Below, one piece after another: positions 5,747-19,754 of a DNA stretch of 54,978 nt. The first letter of the stretch is position 1. Each line of letters starts with the position of its first letter. Source of the stretch: a virus; the IMG/VR virus record IMGVR_UViG_3300012930_000006, positions 1 through 54,978 of that record. The stretch is one strand, 5' to 3'. The notes beneath the pieces are model-generated. The model saw only the letters and a list, made by a program, of their open reading frames with translations, did not search any database and was not told the origin of the DNA. The position numbers and the translations under genes are program-made.

Positions 5747-6337
5747 GTGGAACGCACCGCTTGCGGACGCATCCCAAATTCGCCGTTGCGAAATCCGCGG
5801 CATGAGTTGGCGGCGCACGCCTACGTGCAGGGCAAGACCGGCCGGGAAGCCGGGTTGGCGGCCGGCTACAAGGACGGGCCCGGCCTCAAGGGCAACATGG
5901 CTCGACTGCGCCAGACGGCGGAAATGTGCGAGCGAATCGGCGAGGTCGCGCAGCGGTCAGCCGGACTTGCCGAGATCCATGACGGATGGCTACTCGCCGA
6001 CGTCGCGATGTTCGCGCGCGCTTCGATCGCGCCGTTCTGCAAGCGCGATGCGGAAGGAAAAATCGAGCTTCAAAACGGCCTGCCGGTCCTCGACTTCGCG
6101 CATGCGACCGAGGAAAACTACCGGCTGATCGAGGAGCTTAGCCATACCAAGTTCGGTCCCAAGCTCAAGGTGCATAAACCGATCGAGGCGCTCGACAAGC
6201 TCATGCGCCATCGCGGCCTGATGCGAGACAAGGTGGCCCTGACAGATCCGAGCGGCGAGAGGCCGGCGCACTACGTGATTTCGGATCGGCCTTTGTCTGA
6301 CGAGGAATGGGAGCGGGATCGAACAGGTGCGGCGTGA
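5729..6337 (+). CDS. terS: terminase small subunit
   Basis: 202 residues. The opening region (PRHELAAHAYVQGKTGREAG, then LAAGYKDG) is a helix-turn-helix of the small-terminase type that selects phage DNA for packaging; the middle helices (VAQRSAGLAEIHDGWLLADV) would support ring assembly. It directly precedes the large subunit and overlaps it. The start may be ATG 5729 or ATG 5738; neither has a strong Shine-Dalgarno. It is the first gene of the late region after the tandem terminators. Confidence 0.82.
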   Translation: MIPMPEVERTACGRIPNSPLRNPRHELAAHAYVQGKTGREAGLAAGYKDGPGLKGNMARLRQTAEMCERIGEVAQRSAGLAEIHDGWLLADVAMFARASIAPFCKRDAEGKIELQNGLPVLDFAHATEENYRLIEELSHTKFGPKLKVHKPIEALDKLMRHRGLMRDKVALTDPSGERPAHYVISDRPLSDEEWERDRTGAA

Positions 6338-7830
6338 CGCCGGCGTTGAAAGTCACGCATCAACGCCTGTGGTCGCCGCAGCCTGGTCCTCAAGACGATT
6401 ATTGTTGTTGTCCGTGCCCCGAGGTCTTTCTTGGTGGCGCGCGCGGGGGCGGGAAGACTGACGGCGTTCTCGGCAAGTGGGCGATCAAGGAACGCCGCTA
6501 CGGACAGCACTTCAACGCGATCATGTTCCGACGCACCTCGGTTTCGGCCGAAGACGCGATCGAGCGGTCGAAGGAAATCTACGGGCCGTTGGGTGGAAAG
6601 TTCGATAGCTCGAGGTTGCGTTGGCGTATGCCAAACGGCGGACGCACGAGCTTTGCTTATCTTGAATCGGACGAGGACGCGAACGAATACCAGGGCCGAA
6701 ATGTCACGGACGCGTGGGTCGAAGAGGCCGGCCAATATCCGACACCGAAGCCGATCGACAAGCTATTCGGTGTGCTCCGATCTGCGCATGGTGTTCCTAT
6801 CCAGCTCACGTTGACGGCCAACCCGGGCGGCTCTGGACAGCACTGGATACGCGATCGTTACAAGTTGCATCCGTTCCCACTCAAGCCGCAGCTACTTCGC
6901 CGCACCTTGCCTGACGGCACGATCCACCACACCGCGGTCATCCCGTCGCGGATCACGAACAATCGGATCTTGCTCGAAAACGATCCTGGCTACGTGTCGC
7001 GGCTTCACCTCGTCGGGTCTGAGCAACTCGTCAAAGCCTGGCTTGAGGGCGACTGGACCGCGATCGAGGGCGCGTTCTTCTCGGAGTGGTCGGAGAGAAA
7101 GCACGTCGTTTCGCCGTTTTCCATTCCAGGTTCATGGCTTCGGTTCCGTAGTGGAGACTGGGGTTCGTATTCGCCGTTCTCGATCGGCTGGTGGTCGGTC
7201 GTCGGAGACGACATGCAGATCGTGCAGGGCGATCGTAAGATGACGCTGCCGCGTGGCGCGCTGGTTCGTTATCGCGAGTGGTACGGCGCCGTCGGCGGCA
7301 AGCTGACAGCAGAACAGGTCGGTCAAGGGATCGTCGATCGGGAGAGCGATGATCGCGCCAAGCTCACCTACGGCGTCCTCGATCCGTCGGCCTTCAAGGA
7401 AGACGGAGGCCCGTCGATCGCCGAGCGCATCAACAACGTTCTTTTGCGTGAGAAGCTTGCGGCGTTCACGGGTGCCGACAATGCCCGCGTCGCACGCGCA
7501 GCCGGAGATCCGCAGAAGGGCGGCCCGATGGGCGGTTGGGACCAGATGCGGGCTCGGCTCAGGGGCAACGGCAAGGAGCCGAACAACGTGCCGATGCTGT
7601 ATTTCTTCTCGACGTGTCGTGATTCGATCCGAACCATTCCAGTCCTGCAACACGATCCCAAGCGAGCCGAGGATCTCGACACGGACGCAGAGGACCACGC
7701 CGCCGACGATTGCCGGTATGCCTGCATGTCGCGCCCGTGGGTCAAACAACCGCCGGCCGACAAGGATCTCAAGAAAGACCCCTACCGCGAGTCCACCGAC
7801 GACCGGATGGAATCGTTCGTGACAATTTGA
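6334..7830 (+). CDS. terL: terminase large subunit
   Basis: About 498 residues from GTG 6334, which overlaps the small-subunit stop (GTGA); an ATG at 6307 is an alternative start. It is the packaging ATPase and nuclease. Walker A GGARGGGKT lies about 42 residues in, and a Walker B-like segment DAWVEEAG near 120. The nuclease domain shows acidic positions in FRSGDWGS, GVLDPSAF and DAEDHAADD. A Cys cluster, YCCCPCPEVF, stands just before Walker A and is unusual. Product is confident; exact start is not. Confidence 0.93.
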   Translation: MTPALKVTHQRLWSPQPGPQDDYCCCPCPEVFLGGARGGGKTDGVLGKWAIKERRYGQHFNAIMFRRTSVSAEDAIERSKEIYGPLGGKFDSSRLRWRMPNGGRTSFAYLESDEDANEYQGRNVTDAWVEEAGQYPTPKPIDKLFGVLRSAHGVPIQLTLTANPGGSGQHWIRDRYKLHPFPLKPQLLRRTLPDGTIHHTAVIPSRITNNRILLENDPGYVSRLHLVGSEQLVKAWLEGDWTAIEGAFFSEWSERKHVVSPFSIPGSWLRFRSGDWGSYSPFSIGWWSVVGDDMQIVQGDRKMTLPRGALVRYREWYGAVGGKLTAEQVGQGIVDRESDDRAKLTYGVLDPSAFKEDGGPSIAERINNVLLREKLAAFTGADNARVARAAGDPQKGGPMGGWDQMRARLRGNGKEPNNVPMLYFFSTCRDSIRTIPVLQHDPKRAEDLDTDAEDHAADDCRYACMSRPWVKQPPADKDLKKDPYRESTDDRMESFVTI

Positions 7831-7847: not shown

Positions 7848-8021
7848 ATGACCGACGAGACCAAGCCTGCCGCAGCAGCGGAAGCCCCGGCCGAACCTAC
7901 CCGCGCCGAGCGAATCGAGAAGGTGCTTGCGGACTATGCTCACGCCCTCGAGCATGCCGCCCCGCGCAGCACGGCCGAGCTCGCCGAGATCAAGTCGCTT
8001 CTCAGTGCCGACGCTTCGTGA
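7848..8021 (+). CDS. small hypothetical late protein
   Basis: 57 residues, Ala/Glu-rich, with an N-terminal low-complexity stretch (KPAAAAEAPAEPT) and a helical end. A strong GAGGAGGAAG site precedes the ATG. It overlaps the next gene by 17 bp. No family recognised. Confidence 0.7.
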   Translation: MTDETKPAAAAEAPAEPTRAERIEKVLADYAHALEHAAPRSTAELAEIKSLLSADAS

Positions 8022-9321
8022 TCTGCCATCGGCGGTTCTCGGCTTTGCGCTGATGGTCGCGTTCGTCCCGGGTTGGGGCGGGCTTGCGACGACGCCACGT
8101 TGGGATCTCGGCGTCATCATGGCGCTGGCGCTGTTTGTCGCGCCGGCCCGCCGGCTGACCGCGGTCGATGGTCTTGGCCTCGCGCTGATCGCATGGCTCT
8201 GCTTGTCGATCGTGTGGAGTTCGTCGCCGCTCGACGGGATCGATACGGCGCTCAAGTTGTGCTTAATCGTCGTCGCCTTCGGCCTTGGCGCCTCGATCGA
8301 CAATCCGCGTCCGCTGATCGCCGGCGCCGCGATCGGCATGGCGATCTCGAGCGTTCTGGCGGTTGCGCAGTGGTACGGTTGGGACGGCGTCATCACCATC
8401 CCGGGAGTTTCATCTGATCTTCTCGACGGATGGGACAGAGTCGTCGCAAGAAACGGCGCGCCGTCGGGCTTGTTCTTCGGCCGCGACCGTCTCGGTGAGA
8501 CTGCGGCGCTGGTGCTGGCCGGCGTGATCGGACTGCGGATGTGGTGGTCGATCGGCCTCGTGCTGCCGGCGCTGGTGCTGGCGCAGGAGCGCAACGCGTG
8601 GCTCGCGGCCGCGGTGATCGTTCTGATCGCGATATGGCAACGCGGCCGGACGTTCGAACGGTTTGTGATTGTGGCGATCATGATCCATGGCGCGTTGTTC
8701 ACCTTGATCGTCTCGACTGGTGTCGATGTGCCGTGGAAAATGGCATCTCTGGTCGAGCGCGTCGTGATCTGGAAATTTACAATCGCAAACCTGACATGGC
8801 TTGGTCATGGGCTCGGATCGTTCATCGTAGACGGTCCAGTCATGGCTTGGTCGGTCTCTCCTGGTTCCGATCTCGTTAACATGACGCGCGTGGAGCATCC
8901 GCACAATGAATGGCTCTGGCTTGCTTATGAGGGGGGAGTGGCCGCCGTCGGATTGGGCGCGGCAATTGCTCTGGCAATCGGCCGATGCGTATCACGGTGT
9001 TCCGGTCACCTTGGTCTCGTCCTTGTCGCACTCTTCGTCGTCTCGCTCTTCGCGATGCCATTTCATGATCCGGCTGCGGTCCTTCTGTCGGCTCTTGTCG
9101 CGGGGCATCTTGTTGGCGATCGTGTGCGGCTTCGCGCTGCGGCTGTCTCTGGCCGAGGTGCACTATACGCGGGGGTGGTCGCAGGACGATACGGTCGAAG
9201 CCAACCTTACGGAACTCACCCGGGCGGCGGAATTGTACCCATTCCTGCGTCGGTTTCGCGAAGGGCCGGCCGTGCGGTTGAGGTCGAGGCAGGCGGCGCC
9301 GAAGGGGCGATGACCGTCTGA
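8005..9321 (+). CDS. O-antigen ligase/polymerase-like membrane protein (Wzy_C type)
   Basis: 438 residues with about ten hydrophobic segments and a large extracytoplasmic loop holding HPHNEWLWLAYEGG, a signature-like segment of the Wzy_C/O-antigen ligase family, whose members join glycan chains to lipid carriers or lipid A. A phage copy could change the host surface and block superinfection. The last about 70 residues are polar. GTG 8005 is the likely start; ATG 8053 is possible. It sits oddly between terminase and portal genes and its stop overlaps the next ATG (TGATG). Function is inferred from topology and one motif region. Confidence 0.75.
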   Translation: MPTLRDLPSAVLGFALMVAFVPGWGGLATTPRWDLGVIMALALFVAPARRLTAVDGLGLALIAWLCLSIVWSSSPLDGIDTALKLCLIVVAFGLGASIDNPRPLIAGAAIGMAISSVLAVAQWYGWDGVITIPGVSSDLLDGWDRVVARNGAPSGLFFGRDRLGETAALVLAGVIGLRMWWSIGLVLPALVLAQERNAWLAAAVIVLIAIWQRGRTFERFVIVAIMIHGALFTLIVSTGVDVPWKMASLVERVVIWKFTIANLTWLGHGLGSFIVDGPVMAWSVSPGSDLVNMTRVEHPHNEWLWLAYEGGVAAVGLGAAIALAIGRCVSRCSGHLGLVLVALFVVSLFAMPFHDPAAVLLSALVAGHLVGDRVRLRAAAVSGRGALYAGVVAGRYGRSQPYGTHPGGGIVPIPASVSRRAGRAVEVEAGGAEGAMTV

Positions 9322-9638
9322 TGGCCTCTACCTCAACAAGCCCCAACAACGCCACGGTGAAATTCCGCGGCAATACGGAGCGCGAGATGCCGCCCTTTCC
9401 TAAGCCCGTATCGAAAACGCAGAACGCGGCCATGCACGCGGCTGCGGCAGGCAAGTCGACGATCGGGATTCCGAAGAAAGTCGGTGCCGAGTTCGCCAAA
9501 GGCGCGGCCGGCAAGACGCTCAAGGGATTGCCCGAGCACAAGCCGTCCCGGCGCGCCCGAAAGCATGCGCGCAAGATGGCGAAGCGCGGCATGATCTCTG
9601 AGAAGGCGATGAAGGATCACATGGGCGGGGATTACTGA
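9321..9638 (+). CDS. small basic late protein with shared C-terminal tail (copy 1)
   Basis: 105 residues, Ala/Lys/Arg-rich. Its end, KMAKRGMISEKAMKDH, is the first of five occurrences in neighbouring proteins of the tail K/R-R-G-x-I-S-x-K-A-x-x-x-H/M. The rest shows no known domain; the middle (GKSTIGIPKKVGAEFAKGAA) is basic. It overlaps the upstream membrane-protein gene and the downstream microgene by single TGATG junctions. It could be a capsid cargo protein or substrate of the ATP-grasp enzyme; both are hypotheses. Confidence 0.75.
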   Translation: MASTSTSPNNATVKFRGNTEREMPPFPKPVSKTQNAAMHAAAAGKSTIGIPKKVGAEFAKGAAGKTLKGLPEHKPSRRARKHARKMAKRGMISEKAMKDHMGGDY

Positions 9639-9742
9639 TGCCGATCGAAGAATGGGAAGACTACGACGACAATCCGTAAGACGATCCTGACGCGTGGCGC
9701 GACGTGTGTAACGATCCGGCGAGGGAAGATTGTTCGGCATGA
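9638..9742 (+). CDS. acidic micro-gene interrupted by in-frame TAA
   Basis: The frame begins with a TGATG overlap and reads MPIEEWEDYDDNP, then TAA (9677-9679), then continues in the same frame DDPDAWRDVCNDPAREDCSA to TGA 9740-9742, which overlaps the next ATG (ATGA). Composition stays acidic across the stop and both outer boundaries use the overlaps typical of this phage, so the 34-codon frame looks like one unit. The TAA could be a recent mutation, a sequencing error or a read-through site; only the first 13 residues may be made. Confidence 0.5.
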
Positions 9743-9960
9743 CTGTTAAATCGACTACAACTGTTCGATGCTCTTCGACGATTGCCCAAAGGATAGGCGC
9801 GACAGTTTGTGCGGAAAAAGAACTATCGGAACGTGGAAATTCTGGACTTACATTCAAGAACTTTAGAGTCGATCCATTAGATGGTCCGAATGTTTTTGTG
9901 TTTTGGAAATGGCCGGTAATACATCCGGATGATGGTAAAGAATATTGGGATCCGCATTGA
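9739..9960 (+). CDS. hypothetical protein
   Basis: 73 residues ending PDDGKEYWDPH, with an aromatic stretch NVFVFWKWPV. Base composition is more AT-rich than its neighbours. Start chosen from the ATGA overlap with the preceding frame. No family recognised; no signal peptide. Confidence 0.65.
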   Translation: MTVKSTTTVRCSSTIAQRIGATVCAEKELSERGNSGLTFKNFRVDPLDGPNVFVFWKWPVIHPDDGKEYWDPH

Positions 9961-9967
9961 GGTCGGT

Positions 9968-11296
9968 ATGAACTATCGATCCAAAACAGTATTGGTCTAC
10001 GACCACGGCCTCTTCGTCGAGATCGCGCGCACGCTGTCGAAGTCCTTCGGCCGCGTACTTTACTACTCCCCATGGGAGACGTCCGCGCCGAAGTCGAATG
10101 TCCGCTGCGTCGGTGAAGGTATCGACGAGATCGAACGGGTGGCGAGCATCTGGCCGCATGTCGACGAGGTTGACTTGTTCGTGTTTCCCGACGTGTTCGA
10201 AGGTGCACTGCAGGAATATCTCGTCAAGATCGGTAAGCGCGTATGGGGCTGCCGCATGGGCGAGGAGCTTGAGCTTGACCGCACCGCATGCAAGGAGCAC
10301 TGCGCCGGTCTCGGCATTGATATCGGTCCGTACACGACACTGAAGGGACTCGACGCGCTGCGCTCGCATCTCAAACGCCACAAAGACCAGTTTGTGAAGA
10401 TCCCGTATCTCCGCGGCGACATGGAAACCTTCAAGGCCGACAACTACGAGCTGATTGAGCCGCGGTTGAACGAACTCGCCGACAACTTTGCCAGCAAGAC
10501 CATGGAGTTCATCTGCGAAGAGGAAATTCCTGACGCGATCGAGGTCGGTTACGACGGGTACACGGTCGACGGTAGGTTTCCGAAAGAGGGTATCGTTGGT
10601 GTGGAATGCAAGGACCAAGCGTATGTGTGTGCGGCGATGCCGTACCGCGACATGCCGGCGTCGGTGCGAAGCGTCAACTCAAAGCTCGCAAGCACGCTCA
10701 AGGATTACAGCTATCGCGGCTTCATCTCGACCGAGATACGTGTTTCTCCGGACGGAAAGGCATACTTGATCGACCCGTGCGCGCGTTGCGGATCGCCGCC
10801 GTCGGAGCTCTATCAGATGATGATCGGTAATCTCGCCGATGTTCTGTGGGAGGGCGCCGAGGGAATCCTGATCGATCCGGAACTGATCAAGCCGTTCGGC
10901 GCCGAGTTGCTGCTGATCTCCGAATGGGCCGACAAGAACTGGCAGCAAGTCGACTTTCCGGCCTCGATCCGCGAGCACGTCAAGCTGCGAAACTTGATGA
11001 TGATCGACGGCGAATACTACGTGGCGCCGCAATCGAACGGAACGACGGCGATCGGCGCCGTGGTCGCGATGGGCGACACGCAAGAGGAGGCGATCGAGGA
11101 GTGCAAGCGCTTGGCCGAGATGGTCGAGGGCTACTCAATCGAGAAGCCGATCCAGGCACTCGACAAGGCGGGCGAGCAATTGACGGAAATCCTTGCCGAC
11201 CAGAAACCCAAGTCGAAGGCCGAACGCAAGGTCGAGAGCCTGTCGCGCCGCGGCATAATCTCCGACAAGGCACTTCGCAAGCATGTGACGGTCTGA
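9968..11296 (+). CDS. ATP-grasp ligase-like protein with shared C-terminal tail (copy 2)
   Basis: 442 residues. The layout is an N-terminal alpha/beta domain, then an ATP-grasp core resembling phosphoribosylamine-glycine ligase: FVKIPYLRGDMETF (ATP-binding strand and loop), a central segment FISTEIRVSPDGKAYLIDP and CARCGSPPSELYQMM, where acidic metal ligands lie. ATP-grasp enzymes join a carboxylate to an amine through an acyl phosphate. The last 30 residues form a separate basic tail with SLSRRGIISDKALRKH, shared with four neighbours. ATG 9968 has GAGG upstream; 9929 is an alternative. The substrate is unknown. Confidence 0.82.
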   Translation: MNYRSKTVLVYDHGLFVEIARTLSKSFGRVLYYSPWETSAPKSNVRCVGEGIDEIERVASIWPHVDEVDLFVFPDVFEGALQEYLVKIGKRVWGCRMGEELELDRTACKEHCAGLGIDIGPYTTLKGLDALRSHLKRHKDQFVKIPYLRGDMETFKADNYELIEPRLNELADNFASKTMEFICEEEIPDAIEVGYDGYTVDGRFPKEGIVGVECKDQAYVCAAMPYRDMPASVRSVNSKLASTLKDYSYRGFISTEIRVSPDGKAYLIDPCARCGSPPSELYQMMIGNLADVLWEGAEGILIDPELIKPFGAELLLISEWADKNWQQVDFPASIREHVKLRNLMMIDGEYYVAPQSNGTTAIGAVVAMGDTQEEAIEECKRLAEMVEGYSIEKPIQALDKAGEQLTEILADQKPKSKAERKVESLSRRGIISDKALRKHVTV

Positions 11297-11297
11297 C

Positions 11298-11513
11298 ATG
11301 AACGACGTGTCAAACGATATGCCTCCGTCGAATATGACCCGGGCAAACATCACCGGGAAGGTCACACAGACCGAGATCCATCGTGGCCGTCGCGGTAAGG
11401 TCAAGCGCGTCAAACTCGAGCAGCACCAGAAAAGCCACGTCAGGCAGTTGCAAAAGCGCGGACAGATTTCGCCGAAAGCGGCGGCCAGCCACGGACTGCA
11501 GGGGAAAAAGTGA
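11298..11513 (+). CDS. small basic late protein with shared C-terminal tail (copy 3)
   Basis: 71 residues. A short variable N-terminus precedes a basic stretch (HRGRRGKVKRVKLEQHQK) and the tail QLQKRGQISPKAAASH. The gene begins two bases after the ATP-grasp stop and its own stop overlaps the next ATG (TGATG). Strong positive charge would allow binding to nucleic acid. No known domain. Confidence 0.72.
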   Translation: MNDVSNDMPPSNMTRANITGKVTQTEIHRGRRGKVKRVKLEQHQKSHVRQLQKRGQISPKAAASHGLQGKK

Positions 11514-11674
11514 TGCCCAGCGTTGATATCGAGACCAGCACGCAAGCGCCACCAAAGAATCCGCCGCGCGGCGTCAACACGAAGAAAAACTTTGCCATGC
11601 GGAAGGCGAGGAAACTCGCCAAGCGCGGCATCATCTCGCCGAAGGCGCTGGCGAAGATGGGCACGGAGGATTGA
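11513..11674 (+). CDS. small basic late protein with shared C-terminal tail (copy 4)
   Basis: 53 residues. The N-terminal half is polar and Pro-rich (ETSTQAPPKNPPRG); the second half is basic and ends KLAKRGIISPKALAKM plus GTED. It is the simplest member of the five-protein tail family, little more than a linker plus the tail, and so a good candidate for a bare substrate or targeting peptide. TGATG overlap with the gene before; a structured RNA candidate follows six bases after the stop. Confidence 0.7.
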   Translation: MPSVDIETSTQAPPKNPPRGVNTKKNFAMRKARKLAKRGIISPKALAKMGTED

Positions 11675-11679
11675 CAGCG

Positions 11680-11793
11680 GTGCGACTGAAACAGGGCTAT
11701 CGTCTAAAGCTATAAGACGCCCGAAAGGGAAATCCGGGTAGCGACAAAACCCGGTAGTCCGACCCTCTCCGGATGGGGACAGAGCAGTCGCAC
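11680..11793 (+). ncRNA. candidate structured RNA, closed by 9-bp helix
   Basis: GTGCGACTG (11680-11688) pairs perfectly with CAGTCGCAC (11785-11793). Inside lie CGTCT/AGACG (11701-11705/11715-11719), a CCC-GAAA-GGG GNRA hairpin (11720-11729) or an alternative GGG/CCC pairing with 11694-11696, CCGGGT/ACCCGG (11734-11739/11749-11754) and GTCC/GGAC (11757-11760/11777-11780). The result is a compact multi-helix junction of about 114 nt in the only sizeable gap of this cluster. It matches no RNA class I can name; it lacks hammerhead, HDV and tRNA features. It could be a riboswitch-like leader, a packaging-associated RNA or a processing element. Confidence 0.6.
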
Positions 11794-11824
11794 GGGGCGA
11801 GTCATGTTTTTGAGGAAAACCACC

Positions 11825-12094
11825 ATGGCCTATGATTCTCCGACCGCAACAATCGGTGGCAGCAAGCGAAAGTCGAAGTCCTACAGCCATCCCGATCGGG
11901 AGTGGGAAGTCCGCGACGCAATGCACACGATGATGCGTGCAGCCGAGATCGTCGCTGACAAGAAGCTCATGGCGCAGGTCAAGAAACACGCTGCCGAACA
12001 CGCCGCCAAGATGAAAGACGTGTCGTACCAGGCTGCGATGCTCGCCAAGGCTGGGCGCATCTCGCCCAAGGCAATGGCGAAGATGAGGCACTGA
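11825..12094 (+). CDS. small late protein with shared C-terminal tail (copy 5)
   Basis: 89 residues from ATG 11825, preceded by GAGGAAAACCACC; ATG 11804 is a possible longer start. The protein is helical (EVRDAMHTMMRAAEIVADKK) and ends MLAKAGRISPKAMAKM then RH. The tail differs from the other four by A instead of R before the Gly. The gene lies between the RNA candidate and the portal gene, separated from the latter by one base. Confidence 0.75.
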   Translation: MAYDSPTATIGGSKRKSKSYSHPDREWEVRDAMHTMMRAAEIVADKKLMAQVKKHAAEHAAKMKDVSYQAAMLAKAGRISPKAMAKMRH

Positions 12095-12095
12095 T

Positions 12096-14102
12096 TTGCC
12101 GCTGACCGAAGTCACATATGACCAATTGCAGCGTGCCGATTCGGCGCGACTGACGCCGCTTGTGTCGAGCGACGAGAAGGAGCCGGGAAACAAGCGCGAG
12201 GTGCCGACTGGAGACGAAGATGCCGCGCGGTATCTTTCTGTCCGAACGCTGCGCAACCAATTCCTCGACTACCTCACCAGCAAGGTAGACGAGATCGAGG
12301 AGCAGAAGGATGCGCGGCGATACTATCACGGCGCACACCTGACCGCCGATCAGTTGAGAATCCTCCGCGCGAGGCACCAGCCTCCGATCGTATGGAACCG
12401 GACCAACCGCAAGATCAACGGCATCGTCGGTCTGGTCGAGAAGATGCGATCGGATCCGAAGGCGTTGCCGCGCACACCGAAGAGCGAGCAGGGCGCCGAG
12501 ATCGCGACGCAGTCGATCCGCTACGTGCTCGACTGCAACGAGTGGAAGACGATCGATCCGTGGTGCATCCTGCAATCTGGCATAGACGGAATCGCCGGCA
12601 CGCAGCGGGTGCTCACGCACGACAAGAAGGGCAATTACAATCTCCGGCTTGATTGGGTGATCGGCGACGAATATTTTTATCAGCCGAAATCGTATCGTAT
12701 GGACTTTGCGGATTCCCGCTACGAGGGCCTCGCGAAGTGGCTTGATCTTGATGAAGCGATCGAACTGTTTCCCGAGCAAGAGGAGTTGCTCAATGGCCTA
12801 TTCGAGGGCGACAGTGATCTCACCACGAATCCCGATCGAGACATCAAATGGCTGATGACCTCGACTCGGCATCTTCGCCTCGTCGAGCATTGGTACAAGC
12901 ATCGCGGTCGATGGTGCTGGGCGTTCTATGTCGGCGCGGTGCTGATCGACCAGGGCGAGTCGCCATTCTTTGACGACGAAGGAAACTCGATCTCGTCGTT
13001 CGACATGTTCTCGGCCGCGGTCGATCAAGACGGAGACCGCTACGGTTTTGTGCGCAACCTTAAGGGCCCGCAGGACTCGCTCAACCAGGGCAAGTCCAAG
13101 ATGCTGCACCTCGCCAACACGAAGCTCCTCAAGGGCACAAAGGGCGTGGTCGACGACGTCGAGACCGCGAGGCGTGAGGCGTCCCGCCCGGACGGATATC
13201 TCGAGGTCAATCCTGGTGGCACGCTCGAGCTCGTACAAACGACGGCGGATCTCGCAGCGTTCTCGCAATTCACCGAGGACGCCAAGGCCGAACTTGATGC
13301 CTATGCGAATTCGAACATCGCAGCGATGACCGGCGCCGGCATGGCGAACATCTCGGGACGTGCGTTGGAAATCCTGCGCCAGCCCGGCATGGCAGAGCTC
13401 GGTCCATTCATCCTTGCGGTGCGCGGCTGGAAACTTCGTCTCTATCGCAACATCTGGAATACCGTGCAGCGCTACTGGACGGCCGAGCGATGGATACGCG
13501 TCAACAACAACGAAGGTCTGGGGCAGTTCATCCAATTGAACGGGCTCGGCCTCGACCAGAGCGGGTTGCCGTCGATCATCAATGCGGTCGGAGCGCTCGA
13601 CGTCGACATCATCCTCGAGGAGGGACGCGACATCGCGAGCATGATGGCGGACACCTCCGACGCGCTCAAGGGCTATCCGCCTGGAACGTTCCCGCCGCAA
13701 GTCCTCATCGAGATGTCGGATCTTCCGCGGTCGGAAAAGAACCGCATCATGCAGATGATGTCGCCGAAGCCGCCGCCGCCCGATCCCATGGGCGACCTCG
13801 CCAAGCGGCTGTCGCTCGAAAGCCTCGCCGGCAAGAACGCCAAGACGGCGGCCGAGACGGTCAAGACCCATGCGGGCGCGGAGGAATTACGGGCGAAGGC
13901 CGAGAAGGAGCGCGCGGAGGTCGGCACCGCGGCCGCGCGGGCGGGGCATCTCGCCAGTGCCGCCCACATCGATGCGGCCGAGTTTGCGCGTGACACATTG
14001 CTCGAGGCGCACAGGATCGCCAATCCGGAGCCGCCAGCCGGCGCGCCAAATGGTTCGCCGCAGAGATCGTCGATGCCGCAGCAATATCCGTTGCCGTTCT
14101 GA
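12096..14102 (+). CDS. portal protein (P22 gp1-like)
   Basis: 668 residues, the length usual for short-tailed phage portals. The N-terminal region (YLTSKVDEIEEQKDARRYYH, later PIVWNRTNRKINGIVGLVEK) and the core (GFVRNLKGPQDSLNQGKSKM) fit the P22-type portal family. The C-terminus is a long Ala/Glu helix, like the barrel of podovirus portals. Twelve copies would form the DNA gate and terminase dock. The start appears to be TTG 12096, one base after the upstream stop, with no better ATG nearby. Position after terminase and before scaffold and coat supports the call. Confidence 0.9.
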   Translation: MPLTEVTYDQLQRADSARLTPLVSSDEKEPGNKREVPTGDEDAARYLSVRTLRNQFLDYLTSKVDEIEEQKDARRYYHGAHLTADQLRILRARHQPPIVWNRTNRKINGIVGLVEKMRSDPKALPRTPKSEQGAEIATQSIRYVLDCNEWKTIDPWCILQSGIDGIAGTQRVLTHDKKGNYNLRLDWVIGDEYFYQPKSYRMDFADSRYEGLAKWLDLDEAIELFPEQEELLNGLFEGDSDLTTNPDRDIKWLMTSTRHLRLVEHWYKHRGRWCWAFYVGAVLIDQGESPFFDDEGNSISSFDMFSAAVDQDGDRYGFVRNLKGPQDSLNQGKSKMLHLANTKLLKGTKGVVDDVETARREASRPDGYLEVNPGGTLELVQTTADLAAFSQFTEDAKAELDAYANSNIAAMTGAGMANISGRALEILRQPGMAELGPFILAVRGWKLRLYRNIWNTVQRYWTAERWIRVNNNEGLGQFIQLNGLGLDQSGLPSIINAVGALDVDIILEEGRDIASMMADTSDALKGYPPGTFPPQVLIEMSDLPRSEKNRIMQMMSPKPPPPDPMGDLAKRLSLESLAGKNAKTAAETVKTHAGAEELRAKAEKERAEVGTAAARAGHLASAAHIDAAEFARDTLLEAHRIANPEPPAGAPNGSPQRSSMPQQYPLPF

Positions 14103-17377: not shown

Positions 17378-18481
17378 ATGGCCATTCGTGAAGTGGATGC
17401 CGAGGCGATCGGCAATGCGATCATCGCAACCGAGAAGGAAATCGCGGGAGATCCGTGGGGAATCGAAGAGGCTACTCTCGACGAGACGGGTGACCGTACC
17501 GTCGAGATGATGGGCGAGGGCCTCGAGGGCCAGCACGAGCCGGATGACGACGATGACGAAGGCGACGAGGATGACGAGTCCTCGGAGGCATCGGAATCGG
17601 AGGAAGGCGAGGGCGAAGCCGGAGAGGCTGCGGACAAGAGCGCCGATGGCGAGGCCAAGCCGGAACCCAAAGAGGGTGACGGCAAGGAAAAGCCACTGGC
17701 CGAGGTCGCGCCAGATTCGCGCGACCGTGTGCCCGCACGGCGTCTGCGCGAGCAGACCGATCGGACCAAGGCTGTGGAGGCCGAGCGTGATGCGCTCCGG
17801 CAGCAGCTCGAGGCCGAGCGGTCCGATTCAAGGAAGCAATTCGACACGCTCAACTCGCGTTTCGATGCGGTCCTGACTCAGCTCAAGCCACCCGCTCAGC
17901 AGCAGAACGGCGAAGCCAAGCCATCTGCGGTTCCGGATTTCTTCGAAGATCCCAACGCGTTCATTGCGCACCAGACCAAGCCGCTGCTCGACACCGTCTC
18001 GCAACTCCGCAACGACCTTGCGGCGCAGCGGGTCGAGACCAGCATGGCGATGGCTCACAGCAAGCATGGCGACAAGTTCGCCAAGGCTTACGAGGCTGTC
18101 ACCAAGCTTGATCCGCGCAATCCCGACGACAGGGCAACGGTGCAGCGGATTTACAGTTCCGCCAGTCCGGGCGAGGCACTTGTCTCCTGGCACGGCCGTA
18201 ACGAAACCCTGCGTCAGGTCGGAGATGATCCCGATGCGTATGCCGCGCGCTTGCGTAAGGAAGAGCGTGAGGCATTGATGAAAGACCCCGAGTTCCGCAA
18301 GCAGCTTGTCGAGTCGCTGCAAGCGGAGGCATCCACGGGCGATAATGGCAGAGCACGCACCACAGTCCGACTCCCGAAATCGTTGAACGGCGCGGCCGGC
18401 GGAAATGCCGGACGCAATGTGGCTCAGTTCGAGCACGACGATTCGGACAAGTCGGTCGCTGACTCAGCTTGGCGCACGTAA
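17378..18481 (+). CDS. capsid scaffolding protein
   Basis: 367 residues. A very acidic low-complexity region at about 50-95 (DDDDDEGDEDDESSEASESE), then a coiled coil at about 115-160 (RLREQTDRTKAVEAERDALR and onward) and a helical C-terminal half with a basic end. Length, acidity, coiled coil and position between portal and coat genes are all typical of podovirus scaffolds, which guide coat assembly and leave before packaging. GAAAGAGG precedes the ATG. Confidence 0.82.
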   Translation: MAIREVDAEAIGNAIIATEKEIAGDPWGIEEATLDETGDRTVEMMGEGLEGQHEPDDDDDEGDEDDESSEASESEEGEGEAGEAADKSADGEAKPEPKEGDGKEKPLAEVAPDSRDRVPARRLREQTDRTKAVEAERDALRQQLEAERSDSRKQFDTLNSRFDAVLTQLKPPAQQQNGEAKPSAVPDFFEDPNAFIAHQTKPLLDTVSQLRNDLAAQRVETSMAMAHSKHGDKFAKAYEAVTKLDPRNPDDRATVQRIYSSASPGEALVSWHGRNETLRQVGDDPDAYAARLRKEEREALMKDPEFRKQLVESLQAEASTGDNGRARTTVRLPKSLNGAAGGNAGRNVAQFEHDDSDKSVADSAWRT

Positions 18482-18590: not shown

Positions 18591-19754
18591 ATGGCCGTAA
18601 CGAATACGCAAGCCAATAATGTCCTGATCAAATTCCGGAAGGACATCTATCGCGAGTATGTTCGCGAGAACCTGTTCTCGCCCTACATGGGGCAGGACCA
18701 GACGGCAATCATCCGGGTCATCACCGACCTCGACAAGGGCGGTAAGCAAGGTGGCGAACAGATCAACATTCCGTTGATCGCGCGCCTCAATGCGGCCGGC
18801 GTCGGCAAGGGCGTGTTGCGCGGAAATGAAGAGTCGATCGACAACTACGGACAGCGCATGTGGATCGACTGGTCGCGCAACGCGATCGTCATGGACAACG
18901 CCGAGGAGCAGCGTTCGTCCGTCGATCTCTTCGCCGAGGCCAAACCGATGCTTTCGGATTGGGGCAAGGAGAAGCAGCGCGACGAAATCTGTGACGGGCT
19001 CTATGCGCTGCCCTCGACCGCGGCACCGGCTGGCCTCGGTTCGCCGGCGGGGCAGCGGGTCAACGGTCTGCTGTTCGATGCTGCAACGGCGGCCCAGCGC
19101 AACACCTGGATCACCGACAACGCGGATCGCATCCTCGTCGGCAACTCCAACACCGCGAACCTCAGCGCCGGAAACTTTGCGGCGTCGATGCTCAACGTGA
19201 CGCCCGCGATGGTGATCTCGGGTGCTCTCGTCAACCGCATGAAGCGCTCGGCGAAGAAGGCCGATCCGCGCATCCGTCCCTTCAAGCTCAAGGAAAACGG
19301 AACGGAATGGTTCGTGCTCTTCCTCGGTCAGGAACAGTTCCGTGATGCGCAGAACGACGCCTCGATCCTCGCCGCCAACCAGAACTCGCGCGCCCGCGAA
19401 AATCAGGGTTATCTCAAGAACCCGATCTTCGTCGACGGCGATCTGCTCTACAACGGCGTGATCATCCGCGAGATCCCGGAACTCTCGACCAGGGCGCCGG
19501 TATTCTATACGACCGCCGGTCTCGGCGGAACGCGGATCGCGCCGGCTTTCATGTGTGGTCAGACCGCGATGGCGTGGTGCTGGGGCAAGATGCCGACGCC
19601 GACCTTCCTCAAGGAGGATGACTACCAGTTCCTCCGCGGGGCAGGCATCAAGATGGCATATGGTATCGGCAAGGTCGCGAAGCTCAGCCCCGCCAACCTG
19701 TTCAAGGAGTGGGGCGTGTTCACGGGCTTCTTCTCGGCTACCGCCGACGCGTAA
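18591..19754 (+). CDS. major capsid protein
   Basis: 387 residues. The opening (LIKFRKDIYREYVRENLFSP, then YMGQDQTAIIRVITDLDKGG) and the segment GEQINIPLIARLNAAGVGKG fit the P22/N4-type coat family (phage_capsid_3, also called DUF4043), which has the HK97 fold. It follows the scaffold gene and a structured leader. The codon choice is strongly biased to GC-ending codons, as expected for the most highly made protein. Family level is confident; the precise subfamily is not. Confidence 0.88.
   Translation: MAVTNTQANNVLIKFRKDIYREYVRENLFSPYMGQDQTAIIRVITDLDKGGKQGGEQINIPLIARLNAAGVGKGVLRGNEESIDNYGQRMWIDWSRNAIVMDNAEEQRSSVDLFAEAKPMLSDWGKEKQRDEICDGLYALPSTAAPAGLGSPAGQRVNGLLFDAATAAQRNTWITDNADRILVGNSNTANLSAGNFAASMLNVTPAMVISGALVNRMKRSAKKADPRIRPFKLKENGTEWFVLFLGQEQFRDAQNDASILAANQNSRARENQGYLKNPIFVDGDLLYNGVIIREIPELSTRAPVFYTTAGLGGTRIAPAFMCGQTAMAWCWGKMPTPTFLKEDDYQFLRGAGIKMAYGIGKVAKLSPANLFKEWGVFTGFFSATADA

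Follow-up and report, generated by a model that had tools for sequence, protein, structure and literature searches.

Introduction

In phage T4, cargo of the prohead, which includes an enzyme, Alt, is addressed by a capsid targeting sequence (CTS) that is N-terminal and removed by the prohead protease; in P22 particles, the C-terminus of the scaffolding protein is used as a cargo tag. The T4 internal proteins are small, basic and of unrelated bodies, and share only this short sequence targeting them into the prohead (PMC3012670). The P22 scaffold docks on the inner surface of the procapsid by a C-terminal basic helix-turn-helix (PMC9965877). SHOCT is a short, mostly C-terminal module, made of two amphipathic helices around a conserved glycine and present on many unrelated proteins; its authors obtained a negative oligomerisation test and considered nucleic-acid binding, protein binding and localisation all possible (PMC3581485). 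Here we analyse the IMG/VR virus record IMGVR_UViG_3300012930_000006, whose whole stretch of 54,978 nucleotides is called the window, and in which five proteins encoded between the terminase and portal genes, one of them an ATP-grasp enzyme, share a tail of about 20 residues.

The phages concerned are a family of uncultured soil phages. Judging from the sequences, it is close to certain that the tail is a conserved hairpin transferred between proteins. To our knowledge neither this tail, nor the set of tagged proteins, nor the SpeD/ATP-grasp gene pair found in relatives has been described, and no earlier description of the tail or of the pair was found in the literature and phage records searched. 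A first annotation of the window made without database searches, the sequence-only reading, knew of no described system with this layout; this stands as far as no close relative, of the enzyme in particular, was found among 50,697 records of described phages.

The tail is specific and conserved beyond the window

A tail profile of 24 columns, built from 18 tails of other phages without any sequence of the window, was run against the 1067 six-frame open reading frames (ORFs) of the window, with 106,700 shuffled ORFs as control. It matched exactly five window proteins (E 4.9e-11, 1.1e-9, 1e-8, 8.2e-8 and 1.1e-5), while the next ORF of the window stood at E 2.5 and the best shuffled ORF at E 0.005. 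Because a profile from other phages recovers only these five carriers, and shuffles score poorly, the common tail is a genuine and specific feature, which is conserved elsewhere too. The carriers are the following (aa, amino acids; pI, isoelectric point):

9321..9638, + strand: tail carrier of class 1, 105 aa, pI 10.8; N-terminal box NNATVKFRGNTEREMP, middle body QNAAMHAAAAGKSTIGIPKKVGAEF (phrog_16759-like), then the tail, 9561-9620, KHARKMAKRGMISEKAMKDH
9929..11296, + strand: ATP-grasp enzyme resembling PurD, the glycinamide ribonucleotide (GAR) synthetase, 455 aa, pI 5.1; tail 11225-11284, RKVESLSRRGIISDKALRKH; the true start is probably near codon 14 (MNYRSK...), as in relatives
11298..11513, + strand: tail carrier of class 3, 71 aa, pI 11.7; body NMTRANITGKV...RGRRGK, tail 11433-11492, SHVRQLQKRGQISPKAAASH
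11510..11674, + strand: tail carrier of class 4, 54 aa, pI 10.7; start MPSVDIETST, first bases overlapping the class 3 stop, tail 11600-11659, RKARKLAKRGIISPKALAKM
11804..12094, + strand: tail carrier of class 5, 96 aa, or 89 aa from the ATG at 11825; helical body WEVRDAMHTMMRAAEIVADKKLM, tail 12026-12085, YQAAMLAKAGRISPKAMAKM

The sequence-only reading had described five adjacent proteins sharing one C-terminal tail, and had named as its possible refutation a tail that is random and unconserved. The five proteins and their common tail are confirmed, and randomness is contradicted by the shuffled control and by the retention of the tail in 46 distinct enzymes. The genes are adjacent only loosely, with untailed gaps at 9638-9929 and 11674-11804. 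The C-terminal position is that of most carriers but is not a strict rule: in locus L064 a neighbouring small protein has its copy close to the N-terminus, and in L070 some 30 further residues follow the tail. In the first of the two gaps, at 9638-9760 between the class 1 carrier and the enzyme, an interrupted short reading frame, MPIEEWEDYDDNP and then a stop, is possibly a decayed gene.

The tail follows the pattern A......G.IS.K...K and reads as a helical hairpin of about 20 residues. AlphaFold2 models of two unrelated carriers both give a helix, a turn at G.IS and a second helix (residues 430-440 and 446-454 in the enzyme, 53-82 and 88-95 in the class 5 protein). In the 46 distinct tailed enzymes of relatives the consensus is roughly [RK].A......G[KR]IS.[KR]Q[FYL][DE][KR][MLI]; the G, I and S are invariant (46/46), and this G sits 14-24 residues before the C-terminus. 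Acidic residues are also conserved in enzyme tails, D or E at position +8 in 43 of the 46 and mostly E at -6, unlike many small carriers, which have A or K at +8; the tails of the small proteins are more basic than those of the enzymes (KRGMISEKAMKKH).

Comparison with described modules

Like the T4 CTS, the tail is one short terminal sequence common to otherwise unrelated small basic proteins of one phage; it differs in being C-terminal in almost all carriers and a predicted hairpin, and its carriers are only putative cargo. With SHOCT it has in common a short C-terminal two-helix arrangement with a conserved glycine, as judged from the tail models and the enzyme alignment, but the tail is confined to one phage gene cluster and has, in enzymes, an invariant G-x-I-S core. 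SHOCT also has a strongly conserved Glu; most enzyme tails have D or E at +8, many small carriers A or K. SHOCT (PF09851) is nevertheless the Pfam family matched by most single tails, weakly and below threshold (3 of 34, best E 0.0054), and SHOCT_2 (PF20612) was matched by two of 34 (best E 0.059); no SHOCT match appeared for the whole window proteins in a Pfam scan, nor for the first tail of the window. The P22 scaffold has, similarly, a C-terminal basic helix-turn-helix, whereas the probable scaffold of this phage is untailed. A relation with the P22 hairpin, suggested by eye, was rejected: the P22 peptide obtains 0 bits, a score that 1704 of 4795 shuffles equal or exceed. The tail profile found no credible match in the PDB, and the P22 scaffold structures 1gp8/2gp8 were not among its matches there.

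The tail is an add-on to unrelated bodies

Among the loci up to L110, 81 distinct non-enzyme proteins carry the tail, on at least six unrelated kinds of body. The first joins an N-terminal box, NNxxVxFRGxxEREMP, to a common small phage protein (phrog_16759-like); the second is Cys-rich and resembles high-potential iron-sulfur proteins, below cut-off (PF01355, E 0.016-0.018); the third reads NMTRANITGKV...RGRKGK; the fourth is short and starts MPxxxIESST; the fifth is helical and adjoins the portal; the sixth is DUF6496-like (phrog_2423). Since bodies 1 and 5 also exist untailed in other phages (76 other loci for body 1; L130-L133 for body 5), the tail is an add-on, and the differing bodies and transferability proposed by the sequence-only reading are thus borne out. 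The small carriers are basic (median pI 10.3, 89% above 9) and nearly always encoded between the terminase and portal genes, the number of small genes in this interval varying from 1 to 4 between phages. The class 5 protein has no match among described phages, and its predicted fold none in the PDB. The Cys-rich tailed proteins are located as follows:

L002:2711-3031, L004:5532-5894 and L006:4242-4541: tailed Cys-rich protein of body 2

The NNxxVxFRGxxEREMP box is a second shared module, found on phrog_16759-like and DUF6496-like bodies (window 9321-9400; L064:4685; L071:6673). The DUF6496-like body at L071:6673-6993 has a further, weak match (E 0.024) to the N-terminal part of phrog_3778, a family of head maturation proteases, at most a hint of a head-related role for this carrier.

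The tailed enzyme has a PurD-like fold

That one carrier is an ATP-grasp enzyme is supported by its fold. The protein is recognised neither by Pfam nor by PHROGs, with no Pfam GARS match above threshold, but a profile of 15 sequences reaches GAR synthetases of the PDB (1vkz, E 0.0019; 2yw2, E 0.0037). An alignment behind the family searches had one row with a few mistyped letters at the start; the Python profiles omit that row. The AlphaFold2 model (pLDDT, predicted local distance difference test, 82; pTM, predicted template modelling score, 0.83) matches GAR synthetases over its own length: Foldseek gives E 1.8e-17, and they occupy ranks 1-13 in VIA-align, with Z 27-31 over 361-380 residues. 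On this model the enzyme has a PurD-like ATP-grasp fold, with the tail outside the matched part. The likeness to PurD is one of fold; identity is only 13-17%, and in relatives the gene stands beside a SpeD-like gene. From the alignment, Asp282 is a likely metal ligand, and a nearby Asn is not conserved.

The enzyme is encoded in at least 234 IMG/VR contigs, and in the bacterial genomes of Bradyrhizobium sp. YR681, which has a related prophage (L111, contig NZ_AKIY01000059.1), a Rhizobiales metagenome-assembled genome (MAG) and an Acidobacteria MAG. Within a wider tail-less family, the tailed enzymes make up a single clade (support 100/99), so that the enzyme was tagged once, on entry into this lineage.

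The tail follows one head lineage

The head genes of the window that border the tail cluster or lie downstream of it are:

6307..7830, + strand: terminase large subunit, upstream border of the tail cluster
12096..14102, + strand: P22-like portal protein (PF16510, E 3e-81; phrog_156)
17378..18481, + strand: probable scaffolding protein, acidic (pI 4.6) and without tail, so named from its position before the coat gene
18591..19754, + strand: major coat protein (Phage_capsid_3, PF13252, E 2.4e-37)

A P22-like portal of the window type is found 0-1.6 kb downstream in 41 of 41 testable tailed-enzyme loci and in none of 25 tail-less ones. The whole records with tailed enzymes (n=12) have 2-4 tails each, those with tail-less enzymes (n=12) none, and the 30 distinct tail-less enzymes, which come from other phages, have no tail carrier nearby. 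Conversely, tailed small proteins occur where no enzyme was found: in L013, with a complete terminase-to-portal interval, L123, L129 and L134, a record of 59 kb. In these tail-only records the enzyme profile returned nothing, a result of little weight without a positive control; the same profile or the parent protein does find the enzyme in the window and its relatives. In the portal tree, all tail-bearing phages fall within one group of 50 rows, whose deepest branch (L134 and L129) has tails but no enzyme found, so that the tag may be older than the arrival of the enzyme; L013 and L012, the latter a short contig, are nested among enzyme carriers, as after loss.

The tails are thus restricted to phages of a single portal/coat lineage, in the cluster from terminase to portal, and do not depend on the enzyme. 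Since the portal type tracks the tail, tail-less enzymes exist, and tails exist without the enzyme, these sequence comparisons indicate that the tag belongs to one head lineage and not to the enzyme. The sequence-only reading had placed the tail genes next to the portal, which proves conserved in relatives, and had suggested a search for co-occurrence with portal and ATP-grasp genes; with the portal it is complete at the testable tailed loci, with the ATP-grasp gene only partial.

Mutual recognition of tails by enzyme and small proteins would predict a closer likeness within a genome than between genomes. None was seen: enzyme and class 5 tails share 7.00 versus 7.01 identities of 20 (p 0.22), and no matching appears between enzyme and class 1 (p 0.90) or class 1 and class 5 (p 0.38). 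These values give no sign of coevolution between tails, or between enzyme and substrate. This absence of covariation fits a conserved common partner.

The steady partner of the enzyme gene is SpeD-like

In most relatives a gene for a SpeD-like pyruvoyl decarboxylase (PF02675) lies directly or closely upstream of the enzyme gene, often overlapping it. Examples are:

L005:5567-5992, L006:4543-4932, L067:7574-7993 and others: SpeD-like gene, upstream of the ATP-grasp gene

PF02675 is matched above cut-off in L005 (5e-17), L007 (6e-14), L067 (7e-9), L006 (4e-7) and L073 (5e-6), and below it in L061 and L084. Among testable loci, 35 of 43 tailed ones and 15 of 28 tail-less ones have the gene; it is absent from the window, L002 and L004. 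Judged by gene order and family matches, the steady partner of the enzyme is this decarboxylase-like gene rather than the tailed proteins.

The catalytic residues of Thermotoga maritima SpeD are Ser63, His68 and Cys83 (PMC10407285), and phage SpeD homologues with ornithine decarboxylase (ODC) or arginine decarboxylase (ADC) activity are known (PMC9992855, PMC10407285). The neighbour gene of relatives shares the PF02675 family with these ODC/ADC enzymes, but in its main type, which retains the pyruvoyl Ser and catalytic Cys, Asp takes the place of His68, and its own neighbour is an ATP-grasp gene. At least 37 of 53 distinct SpeD-like sequences have Asp instead of His, and 5 retain the His; Ser is kept in most. 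At the expense of ATP, the ATP-grasp enzyme would link a carboxylate to an amine that comes either from the SpeD-like decarboxylase or from the host. No coupling of SpeD with ATP-grasp was found in the literature searched, nor any paper combining ATP-grasp, S-adenosylmethionine decarboxylase (AdoMetDC) and phage.

A proposed docking tag for the nascent head, and its alternatives

In our proposal the tail, a helical hairpin that is short, transferable and SHOCT-like, would act as a docking or localisation tag, much as the T4 CTS does. Added to small proteins of the phage and to a PurD-like ATP-grasp enzyme, it would let all of them bind one lineage-specific partner, most likely located in the nascent head: the portal, the inner surface of the coat, or the scaffold. 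The small basic proteins and the enzyme would be recruited to the procapsid and perhaps packaged inside. The proposal draws on the profile that picks out exactly the five window proteins, the untailed occurrence of bodies 1 and 5, the portal counts and tree, the hairpin in two models, the weak SHOCT matches, and carriers that are small and basic as the T4 internal proteins are (PMC3012670); the P22 scaffold is a precedent for a C-terminal basic helix-turn-helix docking inside the procapsid (PMC9965877). For a tag docking on a head component, with recruitment to the procapsid or packaging in it as the most likely purpose, we see roughly even odds. A bolder version, to which we give a low probability, sees here a head-targeted enzyme system: the tail would bring the ligase of the SpeD/ATP-grasp pair and the small basic proteins into the procapsid, where amines would be coupled to carboxylates of head or internal proteins.

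Several points weigh against head docking. The association with the portal may be plain co-inheritance in one phage lineage, and because the enzyme gained its tail once, the tail and portal counts represent one event, not many; the 30 tail-less and 46 tailed enzymes were for that reason not retained as independent evidence. The tail is not needed for the genomic location of the enzyme, as tail-less relatives are also found among virion genes. SHOCT itself is without proven function, and its oligomerisation test was negative (PMC3581485). Finally, sequence comparison gives no link between the tail and the coat-binding hairpin of the P22 scaffold.

The strongest rival, unlikely though to be taken seriously, is that the tail binds nucleic acid, its carriers coating the packaged DNA or acting on DNA near the packaging motor. 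The tails and small bodies are indeed basic, and such binding is one of the options raised for SHOCT (PMC3581485); on the other hand, the body of the enzyme is acidic, and the 46 enzyme tails with their conserved acids and fixed A, G, I and S resemble a folded interface more than a charged tail. A homotypic oligomerisation element, gathering enzyme and small proteins in one complex unrelated to the head, would explain why all members share the module and agrees with the predicted hairpin, but one tested SHOCT domain did not oligomerise (PMC3581485) and tails of the same genome are unmatched; we see only a small chance for it. The varying number of small genes would suit yet another view, in which the tails are relics that gene duplication and recombination left behind at a hot spot and that share no function. 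This is highly improbable: enzymes whose mean identity is otherwise about 62% all have the same G.IS core, which is also retained on dissimilar bodies of which untailed homologues exist elsewhere.

ATP-grasp enzymes make amide bonds, and the sequence-only reading had also considered a peptide-modification system, in which the enzyme would recognise the tail and modify the small tailed proteins. A single operon, and the same tail on enzyme and small proteins, would suit this chemistry, and the layout recalls the graspetides (microviridin-type ATP-grasp ribosomally synthesised and post-translationally modified peptides), with an ATP-grasp enzyme beside small proteins. But the enzyme is itself tailed and PurD-like, its steady partner gene is SpeD-like, its tail does not covary with those of its supposed substrates, and the small proteins are dispensable and show no conserved core peptide. 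Besides, a graspetide system would require dedicated precursor peptides always beside its ATP-grasp gene; here the tail-less enzymes lack tailed neighbours, and L013 and L134 have tailed proteins and no enzyme found. Tail-recognised modification thus fits poorly and is quite improbable, and targeting to the head fits better.

Other observations

Tail-less ATP-grasp homologues in L077, L095, L109 and L067 adjoin portal, terminase, internal virion and minor head genes of other head types. In the window, a Wzy_C/O-antigen-ligase-like membrane protein (7927-9321; PF04932, E 3e-8) lies between the terminase and the tail cluster, and Wzy_C-like ORFs occupy, as judged by eye, the same place in L002, L003, L004, L005 and L007. 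Two small proteins with a twin-arginine-like N-terminus, encoded upstream of the portal (L003:7335-7586 and L049:2582-2887), copy the N-terminal arm of the coat protein: NDLYREYVRENLFAPYIG versus KDIYREYVRENLFSPYMG in the coat (arm profile, E 1e-9 and 5e-5).

Implications

Many of the enzyme-encoding viral contigs, which number over 200, have the conserved SpeD-like/ATP-grasp pair, surrounded by virion genes that belong to several head types. The pair points to a phage pathway of amide formation that is as yet undescribed. If the ligase is indeed head-targeted, the enzyme would be packaged and working inside the phage head by means of a C-terminal address tag, and with amines from SpeD or host polyamines it would alter the charge balance or the condensation of DNA inside the virion. 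The tail cluster also offers a small system in which the function of a SHOCT-like tail can be tested. Should the tail prove to target the head, it would be a C-terminal counterpart of the T4 CTS, in soil phages of an unrelated group; internal or assembly-associated cargo would become predictable from sequence, and the tail would provide a compact tag for loading phage heads.

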